The translations under genes were made by a program, and so were the position numbers. This document shows, one piece after another, positions 1,827 to 42,725 of a stretch of 64,000 nt of DNA. The notes under the pieces were generated by a model. That model was not told where the DNA came from and did no database searches. It was given only the letters and a program-made list of their open reading frames with translations. Source of the DNA: a virus; the IMG/VR virus record IMGVR_UViG_3300003332_000015, positions 18,576-82,575 of that record; one strand, given 5' to 3'. Each line of letters opens with the position of its first letter. The stretch's first letter is position 1.

Positions 1827-3545
1827 TTACTGTACTATATATTCAGTAGTTACATCTGTTATTTCTTCTACTCTGAATATTTGATTTCTTGTTTTTAGTT
1901 CAATATTAATTTCATCATTTTTATAATAAGTCTTAACAGTATAATCACTAAATGTACCTGATATACCACTTACTATAACAAGAACTCCTTCGCCAGTTAC
2001 ATAGTTAATTGAAGAACCAGTTAGGTCATATCCTGCTTCAGCTGTAAAGCCTCCAAGACCATCGTCAACTCCAATTTTTACATATCCTAAAGCTAATTCT
2101 TGTATATAAATTGAAATAGATTCTTTTTCAATATCATAAATATCTAAATTTATATCCCCTAAGTAAGTATCACTTAAAGTTGAATAACTTATTAAATCTA
2201 AATATGAAGTATGATATTCAATACCATCAATGGATTTAATATAACCTTTCCATTCTACTTCATACATTGGTTGTTTAAAATCCATATTGTCTAAACTATA
2301 TCTTTCTGTAACTCCATCAATAATAGCTGTTTTAACTATTGATAAAATTTTTGTAGGATCTTTGATAAATGCTTGTACATGAAAAGCTAAGTAAATAAAA
2401 TCTGTATCAATAAAACTTACTATATCTGTAGGAGGTTTATCTTCTTTAATACTTGTTATTACTTCTGTTTTTTGTGTGTTATCTAGTTGTTCCCCTAAAG
2501 GAGTGAAAGCAGATACACGAACGAAATTTTCTTCTGTTGGTATGTATGTCCATAAGTCAACATTATTATCTAAGTTATATTCGTATGCACCCCAAACAGT
2601 TGCTTTTAATATATAAGGACTTTCAGCTAATTTAACTCTATAATCTTTTTTAGCAACCGCTTTATCCCCTGCTTGAAAAGTATCAACACCATTTGTTCTG
2701 ATATCTTCTAAATCTTCTTCTTCTTTTCCACCTTCAATGTTAGAAGTGTTTGTACAATAAATATCTATTTGAGCTGCATCTATATCATATATAGTTGAAT
2801 CAACTGTAGTTACTATATTTATACCTAAAACATTTCCAGTTACACCTAATGTTTCAATATACTTAAAAGCAACAGAATCTCCTGACTGTAATTTAGTACC
2901 AAAAATATCATTACCAAAAGTAATATCTATACCGTCAAAATTTAATTTATTTTTTAAAGTATAAACAGTATCAGTTGAAGCAGCTGCATTTAAGTCATCA
3001 ACTTCAGTCCATAAAGCTCCATTAACCCATACTTCATAATATACGTTTTCTATAATACTATTTGTAATTGAGATCTCTTCGTATATGTCACCATTAGCAA
3101 CATAATTAAAAGTTTTTGGTTCACCTTGAACTACTGGTAAATCTATATAATCATCTGTTATTGTAATGTTCGTAGTTATTGTTGAAGTAAACTTTTTAGT
3201 ACCATCTGAAAATATAGTCCATTTTGGGAAAGGAACTATTTTAACAGGAGGGGCATCAAAAGTAGGAGAAGTACTTACTCTTACATAACCAAGTCCTCCT
3301 AGTTTCCTATGAGCTGAATACTGCATAAATTGTGATTGTGAAACTAAAGAACTTTTTTCAGTTGCTAAGTCCCATCTTGTATTACGTGTTAAGAATTCAT
3401 CATAAGCTGCTAGTTCAGCTATTGCTTCTGAAACTGAATCTAATAATCTACTATTTGTACTGAAGAATAATACATCAGCCCATGAGGCTTTTGCTCTAAG
3501 CCCTGATATTAATCTACCTTTTACTGAATCAAAATCGAATTGCAT
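1827..3545 (-). CDS. Baseplate wedge protein, gp6 / J-like
   Basis: 572 residues. The N-terminus (about 1-100) has the helical signature of baseplate J/gp6 proteins: repeated Leu/Ala helices, then a segment in which the wedge dimerises. The middle is beta-rich. At about residues 345-400 there is a J-like stretch with PLGEQLDNTQK followed by DKPPTDIV and then a long beta-hairpin. In contractile tails gp6/J forms the wedge ring that closes on the hub and changes shape at sheath firing. Position supports this: it directly follows the gp25 gene (4 bases apart), the usual 25-6 order. Identity is by gene order and overall character, not a catalytic motif. Confidence 0.75.
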   Translation of the reverse strand: MQFDFDSVKGRLISGLRAKASWADVLFFSTNSRLLDSVSEAIAELAAYDEFLTRNTRWDLATEKSSLVSQSQFMQYSAHRKLGGLGYVRVSTSPTFDAPPVKIVPFPKWTIFSDGTKKFTSTITTNITITDDYIDLPVVQGEPKTFNYVANGDIYEEISITNSIIENVYYEVWVNGALWTEVDDLNAAASTDTVYTLKNKLNFDGIDITFGNDIFGTKLQSGDSVAFKYIETLGVTGNVLGINIVTTVDSTIYDIDAAQIDIYCTNTSNIEGGKEEEDLEDIRTNGVDTFQAGDKAVAKKDYRVKLAESPYILKATVWGAYEYNLDNNVDLWTYIPTEENFVRVSAFTPLGEQLDNTQKTEVITSIKEDKPPTDIVSFIDTDFIYLAFHVQAFIKDPTKILSIVKTAIIDGVTERYSLDNMDFKQPMYEVEWKGYIKSIDGIEYHTSYLDLISYSTLSDTYLGDINLDIYDIEKESISIYIQELALGYVKIGVDDGLGGFTAEAGYDLTGSSINYVTGEGVLVIVSGISGTFSDYTVKTYYKNDEINIELKTRNQIFRVEEITDVTTEYIVQ

Positions 3546-3549
3546 ATTA

Positions 3550-3944
3550 TTACACCTTTGCCTTTATCTTTTCTTCTACAACTACATGAGTTTTTAAATC
3601 TACAGAGTAAACCTCTAAATAAATATACCAATATTTACCTTCGTAATTTGGTTCTACCTCTAGTTTTTCAATTGCTAAAAATGGTTGGTAGTCTTGGTAT
3701 AGTCCATCTCTAATTGCCATTTTTAAACTGTCTGAACTTAGAGTATTCATTGGCTTTGCAAGTAAGGGAGTTAAGTAACCACCTCTATTTGGTGACCTTA
3801 CTAAGTCTGCTTTAAAAGAAGCTAACCAATGTTTCAAAGATTGATTAAGTGCTTCTTCACCCCATACTTGTTTTATAGCACCATCTTCTTGTATAGTACC
3901 TAAGTAGTCATGATAACGTATTTTTCTATTTTTTTTAATCCCAT
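3550..3944 (-). CDS. Baseplate wedge gp25-like protein needing a -1 frameshift (or with an indel)
   Basis: The C-terminal frame reads LNQSLKHWLASFKADLVRSP and continues through a typical gp25/GPW ending. The homologous frame continues upstream of the only in-frame near-cognate start (TTG at 3837) for about 30 further residues, back to an A8 run, and has no ATG of its own. An ATG at 3944 opens the neighbouring frame; it reaches the run as TTA AAA AAA ATA and stops after 14 codons. Slipping -1 on A-AAA-AAA joins the two frames into 131 residues, almost exactly the T4 gp25 length (132). Either a programmed -1 shift or an A8/A9 indel explains this. The late motif TTACTAATATAAT lies 3 bases before the ATG, and no Shine-Dalgarno site is visible. 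Confidence 0.7.
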
Positions 3945-3947
3945 TAT

Positions 3948-3960
3948 ATTATATTAGTAA
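3948..3960 (-). promoter_or_regulatory. Late-type motif TTACTAATATAAT before gp25
   Basis: Exact copy of the recurring motif. It ends three bases before the gp25 ATG, so there is almost no room for a leader. Confidence 0.55.
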
Positions 3961-3966
3961 AAAAAA

Positions 3967-4329
3967 TTACTCTCCTAAAACTTTAGTTTGTCCAGCATTT
4001 GTTATTGTTACTTTAACAGTTAGTGAACAAGCCCCTCCTCCACTTAATACACCAGGAATTAATGGGATTGTTACTTCGTCATCTACTCGTAAAGGAGTAT
4101 TTCCTTCAACTCTATTTTTTAAAGATGTTGCTGGCATATAACCAACACCAGCTGAGGTTGTTGTACAGGTACCATCACTTGCTCCTATAGGTACAGTAAC
4201 TTGTGTATTATTTTTATAAATAAACTGTCCTCCTGCTTTAACTTTTGTAGACGGCGTTTCAGTGAAAGAAGCTGACCCCGCTACATCTAAACTCAAAGTA
4301 CACCCTTCTACAGCAACCTCTTTACCCAT
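3967..4329 (-). CDS. PAAR-like spike-tip protein
   Basis: 120 residues, small, rich in Gly, Val and Thr, with three Cys. It looks like a beta-structured membrane-piercing tip: repeated V-x-x-G-x turns and segments such as VTVPIGASDGT. The start ATG overlaps the stop of the preceding spike gene (TAATG), implying translational coupling and paired production. Tip proteins of the PAAR / gp5.4 type cap the central spike. The family is inferred from size, composition and position between spike and gp25; no decisive motif was seen. Confidence 0.55.
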   Translation of the reverse strand: MGKEVAVEGCTLSLDVAGSASFTETPSTKVKAGGQFIYKNNTQVTVPIGASDGTCTTTSAGVGYMPATSLKNRVEGNTPLRVDDEVTIPLIPGVLSGGGACSLTVKVTITNAGQTKVLGE

Positions 4330-8854: not shown

Positions 8855-8880
8855 ATTACTATATATATTATATTAGTAAT
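8855..8880 (-). promoter_or_regulatory. Late-type motif inside an inverted repeat, before tape measure gene
   Basis: TTACTAATATAAT (8867-8879) lies inside a 7-bp inverted repeat (arms 8855-8861 and 8874-8880). The repeat ends just before the AAGG ribosome-binding site of the tape measure gene. The motif also contains the TAA stop of the upstream endonuclease. Confidence 0.6.
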
Positions 8881-11306: not shown

Positions 11307-11345
11307 AACCCTCCTATTATTATATTAGTAATAATACAGAGGGTT
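11307..11345 (-). promoter_or_regulatory. Late motif inside RBS-sequestering hairpin before the 10762-11301 gene
   Basis: TTACTAATATAAT (11319-11331) sits in the loop region of an inverted repeat: outer arms AACCCTC (11339-11345) and GAGGGTT (11307-11313), inner arms TATTATTA/TAATAATA. On the minus strand the 3' arm carries the GGAGGG ribosome-binding site and is followed by TTTTATTTT. Read-through RNA could fold and hide the site or terminate; RNA started at the motif would lack the 5' arm. Confidence 0.55.
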
Positions 11346-11379: not shown

Positions 11380-11790
11380 TTATAACATGTTACTTGCTTT
11401 TTCTAAATACTCACATACACCCATTAAAATCTCTTCACGTATAGTATTATCAACTAGTAGATCTTCAACTCCCATATCAACTGCAAAACCTATATCTTGA
11501 GCTAAGTCATATGGAGACATAGGACCATAAAGTGCTAAGTTAGAAATTCCTGTAGATATTGGACTAAGTTTTCTAATATCAAAATTCTCATCTAATATTT
11601 TTATCTTGTCACCTTTCTCAAGAATGGTATTCCCAATAGGAGTGTCTTGTGTAATCTCAATAGTAAGACTATCTTCTTTCTTTTTATCTTTCTTACCAAC
11701 TTTTTTCTTACACGATACACAATACCCAGTCTGTATTAGATACTTACTACCACAGTCAGGACATTTTGCTGTTTTACTTGCTTCTCTCAT
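11380..11790 (-). CDS. Zinc-ribbon protein with ILExGDKI module
   Basis: 136 residues. The N-terminus has two CxxC pairs (CPDC ... CVSC) forming a zinc ribbon (about 9-30), then a Lys-rich linker. The recurring module LTIEITQDTPIGNTILEKGD (about 43-70) follows, then a helical C-terminal domain of about 65 residues not recognised elsewhere. The module's I-L-E fits the T4 gp21 cleavage rule, so it may be an internal head protein, although it lies between tube genes. It is unlike any tail protein I know. Confidence 0.55.
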   Translation of the reverse strand: MREASKTAKCPDCGSKYLIQTGYCVSCKKKVGKKDKKKEDSLTIEITQDTPIGNTILEKGDKIKILDENFDIRKLSPISTGISNLALYGPMSPYDLAQDIGFAVDMGVEDLLVDNTIREEILMGVCEYLEKASNML

Positions 11791-14822: not shown

Positions 14823-14862
14823 TTTACTAATATTTTTTATATTGTGTTATTATATTAGTAAA
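14823..14862 (-). promoter_or_regulatory. Late motif with 11-bp inverted copy before sheath gene
   Basis: TTTACTAATAT (14852-14862) and its perfect reverse complement (14823-14833) can form an 11-bp stem with an 18-base loop. The 3' arm ends in AAA directly before GGAG, the sheath ribosome-binding site. TTACTAATATAAT occupies 14849-14861. Confidence 0.6.
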
Positions 14863-17646: not shown

Positions 17647-17668
17647 GTCTTGTCATAGTCTTGTCATA
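17647..17668. repeat. 11-bp tandem duplication
   Basis: GTCTTGTCATA present twice in direct succession; responsible for the frameshift in the endonuclease gene at 17423-18099. Confidence 0.95.
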
Positions 17669-18160
17669 TCACTAACTATTCTTCCTTTCTGAGATTCTGA
17701 TATCTTATGTTTATGTTCTTCACTCATATGTTTATTATAGTAATGATGATTTTTACCTTTTTTAGCTTCTGATATTTTTTTACGTGTTTCAATAGTACAT
17801 GGTGGTTTATCTTGACGTAACCTAGCGTGCTGTTTAGAGGTTAACTTAGGAGAATATTTTACATTTTTTGACATAAACATAAAAGCATAAGTCATTGACC
17901 CTCCATAAATCTTCCAAAGAATTAGATGAGCAATGAAATGTTCTCTTGCTGTAAGACGAATTATATTTTCAGGTTCATCACTTCCACCTAAAGCTCTAGG
18001 TATGATATGGTGTTTTTCTGTATAAGTATCTTTTGGGATTTTTCTTAATTTTCTTGAATCGATAAATTTGTCGTATCTAATTTTATGAATAGAATTCATT
18101 GTACTAACCTTTTTAATTTTTAAGTCACTTCAATGACTGTTAATATATTATTAAAAGTTA

Positions 18161-20854: not shown

Positions 20855-21655
20855 TTACTTTTTCTTCTTTTGTTTTTGCCATTGTTTAAGAGCTGCTTGT
20901 CTTAATTTTTCTCTAGTTTCTTTAGATACAATTTTACCTTTATTTGATTTTGATATTTTAAAACGTGTTTCCTTTGTTATAACTCTTCCTTTACTTATTT
21001 CACTTATTCTTTTCTTTTTCTTATCAGCTACATCTTTACCATATCTTTCTTCATATGAAATACCTTTTTGTGATTTACTTATTTTCTTTTTTGATTTATC
21101 AGAATGATGTTTACCTGTCATACCAGGACTAGGATTATCTTTTTTAGAATCACTTATTTTCTTTTTAGTTTCTTCTTATCGAGGTCTCCCTTTTAAAGAA
21201 CTACTAACTTTTTCTTTCCACTTTTTAGCACCTTCTTTGCCCATTGTCTCGATATGTGTTTTACCTTTTTGTATTTTACTAAGATGATTTTTAACTTCTT
21301 TAGAACGTATTTTTCCTCTATTTGAATCACCAATTTTTTTCTTATGTTCTTCGCTCATTTCTATACTTTCTTTTAATCTTTGGTATTGTTTAGATGTTAA
21401 AGTATTAATATGTCTACCGTCTTGTGATAGTAACCAAAAAGCATATGTCATTTGTTTTCCATAAGCTTTCCACAAAATTAGGTGAGCGATATAGTGTTCT
21501 CTTGCTGTTAAGATTATAAGATTTAAAGGTTCATTAGAGCCACCCAAGGATCTTGGGAGAATATGATGTTCTTCTGTATAAAAATTTTTTGATCTTTTTC
21601 TAATAGGACGTGATTGGATAAATTTGTCGTAGCGGATTTTATGAATATTCTTTAT
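20855..21655 (-). pseudogene. HNH homing endonuclease inactivated by stop codon and start loss
   Basis: A single reading frame spans 267 codons and aligns with the other HNH endonucleases. It has KIRYDKFIQSRPIRK, TEEHHILPRSLGGSN and LTAREHYIAHLILWKAYGK, then NUMOD3 repeats. The codon where the relatives have ATG is ATA (21653-21655), after a good AGGAG. An in-frame TAA (21176-21178) lies between SSLKGRPR and EETKKKISDSKK. Both lesions are point changes, so this is a recently decayed copy. The nearest usable start is a TTG inside the HNH core (21547). Confidence 0.8.
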
Positions 21656-23282: not shown

Positions 23283-23307
23283 CTAATTATATTATATTAG
23301 TAATTAG
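23283..23307 (-). promoter_or_regulatory. Late motif in inverted repeat before AAA+ ATPase gene
   Basis: TTACTAATATAAT (23291-23303) inside a 7-bp inverted repeat CTAATTA/TAATTAG (23301-23307 and 23283-23289). The AGGATGAGG ribosome-binding region follows the 3' arm. Confidence 0.55.
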
Positions 23308-27323: not shown

Positions 27324-27335
27324 ATTATATTAGTA
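27324..27335 (-). promoter_or_regulatory. Late-type motif abutting the HNH endonuclease start
   Basis: TACTAATATAAT ends at the base before ATG. Same arrangement as 17427-17439 and 63920-63932. Confidence 0.45.
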
Positions 27336-38934: not shown

Positions 38935-38962
38935 TTCCTTATTATTATATTAGTAGTAGGAA
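38935..38962 (-). promoter_or_regulatory. Late motif in short inverted repeat before protease gene
   Basis: CTACTAATATAAT (38944-38956) between arms TTCCT (38958-38962) and AGGAA (38935-38939). The 3' arm is part of the AAGGAAGG ribosome-binding site. Confidence 0.5.
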
Positions 38963-40818: not shown

Positions 40819-40861
40819 ACCCTTTCTTACACTTAGATATTATATTAGTACAAGAAAGGGT
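40819..40861 (-). promoter_or_regulatory. Late motif within RBS-sequestering hairpin before portal gene
   Basis: ACCCTTTCTT (40852-40861) and AAGAAAGGGT (40819-40828) form a 10-bp stem around the late motif TACTAATATAAT (40839-40850). AAAGGG in the 3' arm is the portal ribosome-binding site. RNA begun at the motif would lack the 5' arm. Confidence 0.65.
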
Positions 40862-42071: not shown

Positions 42072-42725
42072 TCAAGCAGTAACTTTGTAATATAACTTTT
42101 CTATTTTATCTAGTTTAAGTTTTATAGAAGCTGCTGTATAACCTACAAACTCACCAATCTCTCTTAATTTGTAACCTTGAGATCTATATTTAACTATTTG
42201 TTTTTGAGTTTCATCTAAATACTTATTAATAAAGTCCTCAAAATTTACAGTGTAAATATGATCATCTTCTTTTCCACTAACATTCTGTATATAGTCATGC
42301 ATGAACTCAGCATGATCAACACCTTCTGACATAGTATTTTTAGCAAATACATAACTCTCATTTAAACCAATAAACTTTTTATGAGAGTCTTTACTATCTA
42401 ATTCAAAATACAAAAATCTTTCTTTTTTTGTATAACGATAATTAATTTCATTTCTTATGAAATTATTAAAGTGTACATAAAAATAAAATTTGTTAGGATC
42501 TTTAATTTTATCTATTTTAATAAAGTCTAAAGCCTTTTTAAATAAAACATAAGAGTCTTGTACAAAATCTTCCAAGTCCTCATGACCAAAACCAATTCTA
42601 AATAACATAGTTTTATGTTTACCTATTAGTGGTTGGTACTTTTCCCATAACTGACATTCAGCTAACTCAACTTCTCTTTTGTTAGTACTTTCTTTAATCT
42701 TTTGTATTAAACAGTAATCACTCAT
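42072..42725 (-). CDS. Sigma-70-type RNA polymerase sigma factor (late, gp55-like)
   Basis: 217 residues. Region 2-like segment EDFVQDSYVLFKKALDFI ... FYFYVHFNNFIRNEINYRY (about 50-120) and a region 4-like helix-turn-helix QKQIVKYRSQGYKLREIGEF, then TAASIKLKLDKIEKLYY (about 170-215). T4 gp55 has no region 4, so this could bind DNA alone. It is the natural candidate to recognise TTACTAATATAAT, found before most structural genes downstream. Confidence 0.75.
   Translation of the reverse strand: MSDYCLIQKIKESTNKREVELAECQLWEKYQPLIGKHKTMLFRIGFGHEDLEDFVQDSYVLFKKALDFIKIDKIKDPNKFYFYVHFNNFIRNEINYRYTKKERFLYFELDSKDSHKKFIGLNESYVFAKNTMSEGVDHAEFMHDYIQNVSGKEDDHIYTVNFEDFINKYLDETQKQIVKYRSQGYKLREIGEFVGYTAASIKLKLDKIEKLYYKVTA

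Follow-up and report, generated by a model that had tools for sequence, protein, structure and literature searches.

The T4-type gp25 gene of an uncultivated phage contig has probably been broken in frame by a small indel, either a mutation or a consensus error, and is not likely to be expressed by a programmed frameshift. Its coding region is divided between two reading frames, the product is homologous to gp25, the relatives carry the gene unbroken, and the A8 run near its beginning is an ordinary feature of the record; where exactly the indel lies and how it arose are inferred. The analysis covers a window of 64,000 nt, bases 18,576-82,575 of a 146,575-nt IMG/VR virus record.

Results

The product of the long frame (P0001) is a genuine relative of gp25, the T4-type baseplate wedge protein and sheath initiator. 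A profile of P0001 and its relatives matched T4 gp25 in the PDB (5iv5_T, E 7e-4; 5iw9_A, E 9e-4), colinearly over positions 4-103, and tblastn aligned P0001 with cyanophage gp25 at E 3e-3. As a single sequence P0001 gave no Pfam match, and one of its relatives, L002, reached 18.8 bits against GPW_gp25 (PF04965), below the curated cut-off of 27.2. The AlphaFold2 model of the product joined across both frames (mean pLDDT 74) has the gp25 fold, with 5iw9 (T4 gp25; E 1e-3) and 2ia7 (TM 0.66/0.75) as best Foldseek matches. Residues 1-12 of the joined product are of low confidence in the model, as are residues 1-16 of L002, and the N-terminus is probably disordered in both. Given this predicted disorder, an altered gp25 N-terminus could be tolerated.

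The surroundings agree with this identity. Genes for a gp5-like and other tail proteins precede gp25, and the gp6-like gene that follows matches phrog_219 (E 1e-37), giving the gp25-gp6 order of the baseplate cluster of T4-like cyanophages. With T4 gp25, a baseplate wedge protein and initiator of sheath polymerization, the gene shares fold, length (about 131-132 aa) and position directly before a gp6-like gene; it differs in being frame-broken near its start and in a single-sequence Pfam match that stays under the curated cut-off. The gp25 of cyanophages (Kyanoviridae, e.g., S-IOM18 and P-SSM7) has the same gene order but is distant (about 26% identity, covering 82% of the protein), and there it is a single intact ORF.

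No single ORF led by ATG, GTG or TTG encodes the whole of gp25. Downstream of its bounding TAA, the gp25 frame has none of these codons before TTG 3837, from which a 95-aa product would lack about 36 of the 131 residues, the conserved WGEEALNQSLKHW segment among them. The short frame starts at ATG 3944-3942 and reads ATG GGA TTA AAA AAA ATA GAA AAA TAC GTT ATC ATG ACT ACT TAG, that is, 14 codons and an in-frame TAG at 3902-3900. Since both frames are open from this ATG to the TAG (3944-3900), the change of frame could have occurred anywhere between them, and the A8 run is one possible site. An earlier note, made from the letters of the window, was accurate on all of this: on the two-frame arrangement with its ATG, A8, TAG and open gp25 frame, on the identity of the product, which the T4 profile match and the fold bear out, and on the conserved part that a TTG start would delete.

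Table 1. Features of the gp25 locus and recurrent elements, in window positions
Feature	Position	Strand	Remark
gp25 reading frame	3550..3948	minus	Open from TAA 3951-3949 down to the stop at 3550
ATG-led short frame, MGLKKIEKYVIMTT followed by a stop	3900..3944	minus	Taken as the original gp25 start
A8 run	3936-3929	minus	A-AAA-AAA when read in the ATG frame; candidate slippage site
Most likely place of the frame break	3910..3918	minus	Position moderately supported; 4 nt shorter than both close relatives
Late-promoter-like box CTAATATAAT	3948..3957	minus	3 nt before the ATG
gp6-like baseplate wedge gene	1827..3545	minus	Directly downstream of gp25; used for finding relatives
Other copies of CTAATATAAT (examples)	8867-8876, 11319-11328, 14849-14858	minus	
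Other copies of CTAATATAAT (further examples)	23291-23300, 27324-27333, 38944-38953, 40839-40848	minus	
Module ...ILEKGDKIKIL...	near 11622, 15872, 16762, 18310, 36181, 36821	minus	

No close relatives were retrieved by a direct search with the gp25 of the window or by a DNA search in named phages, and a search of genome contigs with a gp6 alignment also returned none. Those used here were obtained through gp6-like protein and alignment searches. They comprise two close contigs, L001 (gp25 of 132 aa) and L002 (131 aa), whose gp25 is 50-53% identical to that of the window, and two distant ones, L014 (L015 being the same sequence) and L044. An alignment with related phages had been proposed in the earlier note as a check on a frameshift, and its outcome goes against one: in all four contigs gp25 lies in one frame with an ATG start, and in none of them is there an A8 at the corresponding place (L001 has A6G). 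The ATG of the relatives stands in the same place, adjoining the promoter box.

The resemblance between the ATG frame and the relatives runs beyond the A8. The window reads M-GLKKIE-KYV where L001 has MKR-LKKYV and L002 ...IYV, so that KYV (codons 8-10) is common to the window and L001, and YV is found in L002 as well; the relatives then continue with YD(V/T)DY.G. In the MAFFT alignment the window has a gap of 4 nt that opens directly behind the first bases of that Val codon, and the shortfall relative to both close relatives falls just before or inside a conserved D-x-D motif. This stretch is kept in all four relatives, and the T4 alignment shows SDID there too. One event within it would explain the lost residue and the change of frame together. 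Continued similarity to codon 10 and a 4-nt deficit in the next motif do not support the placing of the shift at A8 (codons 3-5) in the earlier note.

A localization test, in which a -1 shift was tried after each of codons 1-14 and scored against the relatives, pointed the same way. A shift after codon 10 was best with L001 (362 vs 343 at A8) and with L014 (124 vs 114 at A8, codon 12 tying), while L002 hardly discriminated (364 vs 361). When the 16 nt between A8 and CATGAC were shuffled, 26 of 3000 shuffled sequences equaled or exceeded the gain with L001, and 173 of 3000 did so for the gain summed over three relatives; an HMM of the four relatives preferred codon 10 by 2.6 bits, a value reached in 59 of 400 shuffles. 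These comparisons moderately favor a frame break near codons 10-12, and the A8 run is not the frame-change site favored by the data. An indel in the homopolymer itself (A9 misread as A8), the simple alternative of the earlier note, is possible, but the nucleotide deficit is more likely to lie downstream of A8 than within it. A programmed frameshift at the GTT/ATC site was also considered and rejected, as C-GTT-ATC is not a slippery heptamer.

Runs of eight A are common in this genome. In ORFs of at least 100 aa, the coding strand of the 146.6-kb record holds one A11 run and 23 runs of A8; of the latter, 19 share the A-AAA-AAA register and lie inside intact ORFs. An A8 near a gene start therefore carries little information. 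At the gp25 start the slippery heptamer falls where the two frames overlap, and its register is correct. Neither this slip site nor the two-frame arrangement is conserved in any of the four relatives, and the RNA downstream shows no notable structure (z -0.32; 66 of 200 shuffled sequences folded equally well or better).

The box in front of gp25 recurs throughout the record. The box CTAATATAAT, or (TA)CTAATATAAT in its longer form, has 26 copies, compared to 3.2 for shuffled motifs. Fifteen of the 26 copies are found no more than 50 nt ahead of an ORF of at least 80 aa that starts with ATG (controls, 8%). In the related contigs G002 and G001 together 17 of 20 copies are so placed, and 16 of the 17 copies in G002 are on one strand. 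The copies mostly stand just upstream of late genes, and the gap between box and ATG is either 0-3 nt, as in several genes, or at least 9 nt. In G002, exactly the same CTAATATAATATAATG leads an intact ORF of 228 aa, which, together with the placement of the box, supports ATG 3944 as the original gp25 start. The short gaps suggest that some late mRNAs may be leaderless or nearly so, with the ATG 0-3 nt after the box; a search of the phage literature turned up no leaderless late promoter with TATAAT.

Other elements of the late region deserve mention. A 217-aa protein (42072-42725, minus strand) weakly resembles sigma factors of RNA polymerase (phrog_1740, E 0.01), which makes it a candidate for the late sigma factor acting on the CTAATATAAT box. 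The promoter-like box and the ATG of gp25 lie between the T8/A8 arms (3928-3937 and 3958-3967) of a perfect 10-nt inverted repeat. In an mRNA that reads through from upstream, the start codon could come to lie in the loop of this repeat, which may also be a product of chance in AT-rich DNA. Six proteins of the late strand share a module of about 30 residues (Table 1).

Two homing endonuclease genes in the window look damaged, and the record holds at least one frame break besides that of gp25. In an HNH/NUMOD3 endonuclease (17653-18099, minus strand, extending to about 17480) the frame is interrupted by an exact tandem duplication of 11 nt (TATGACAAGAC twice), and beyond its end at 17653 an endonuclease-like C-terminal tail continues in another frame. 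A paralogue, the gene at 21547 (21176 to about 21656, minus strand), has an N-terminal part without ATG; its apparent start is an ATA preceded by AGGAG, at the place of the ATG in the paralogues, and is either a non-AUG start or a decayed one.

Discussion

The events at this locus can be pictured as follows. The gp25 gene would originally have started, as it still does in the relatives, at the ATG beside the late-promoter box and would have run in one frame throughout. The frame would then have been broken by a small indel, whose most likely place is the conserved D-x-D motif near codons 10-12. This indel may be real, having arisen recently in the phage population that was sampled, or it may be a local error of consensus or assembly.

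Among 95 homologous gene pairs with G002 and 72 with G001, none has homologous segments in two frames, so indels are rare in the genes shared with these relatives, which counts against a small indel in gp25. The flagged starts that were inspected belonged to antisense shadow ORFs or lay inside or next to the aligned part, and in view of this and of the lack of two-frame homology a general failure of the assembly was rejected as the cause. On the other hand, the two seemingly damaged homing endonuclease genes, both beyond what the comparisons with G002 and G001 could judge, indicate that small sequence defects do occur in the contig. Assembly of the T4 wedge is strictly ordered and includes gp25 (PMC3004832), so that a null allele, once fixed, would probably not last. 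The data fit a minority variant, a recent mutation or a local consensus error.

The earlier note had concluded that gp25 needs a -1 frameshift, and in an insertion sequence A_AAA_AAA has indeed been proven to act as a shift motif (PMC4066793). As in the programmed -1 frameshifting on A_AAA_AAA/G known from bacteria and insertion sequences, the slip heptamer stands here in the correct register, and the overlap of the frames is permissive. However, no stimulator is seen, the site would lie at codons 3-5, and among the E. coli heptamers lacking a stimulator those classed as shift-prone attain only 2.1-10 times background (PMC4066793). Four one-frame relatives lacking the A8 largely refute a selected ribosomal shift near the gp25 start, A8 runs in register are ordinary in the record, and the break fits better downstream of A8. 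Programmed frameshifting is thus extremely improbable, and the claimed need for it is not supported. That gp25 is initiated in its own frame at an ATT or ATA, with no change of frame, is very unlikely as well. Such codons are present in the open frame, and the endonuclease with the apparent ATA start behind AGGAG offers a precedent within the window; yet that case may itself be a decayed start, no Shine-Dalgarno sequence was found at a usable distance from the gp25 candidates, and all relatives use ATG.

There is a small chance that a real indel is rescued by slippage on the A8, with the polymerase adding an A or the ribosome shifting by -1 in a fraction of cases to give MGLKKNRKIRYHDYLG... 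and enough gp25. The run lies in the right register within the overlap, the N-terminus predicted to be disordered might accept the change, and single-A insertions in transcripts climb steeply with the length of an A run (PMC5574713). In some broken genes of insect endosymbionts, slippage on long poly(A) runs corrects 12-50% of transcripts (PMC5009743), and these genes resemble the present one in their AT-rich genome and in an A run close to the frame break. The run here is only eight long, though, and the rescue hypothetical; efficient bacterial transcriptional slippage is documented for runs of nine (PMC5009743), 19 other in-register A8 runs lie within intact genes, and the downstream structure is unremarkable. 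Slimmer still is the chance that the phage lives with a fixed indel in a needed structural gene by slippage on an A8 at the 5' end of a leaderless or nearly leaderless late mRNA. If true, this would be slippage rescue in a free-living phage, with a baseplate protein dependent on slippage.

Under the preferred and more probable reading, a small indel, the gain is a practical one: the annotation of gp25 in this record should show a frame break near codons 10-12 and not a recoded gene. The CTAATATAAT box, for its part, provides a handle on late transcription in an unstudied phage group.
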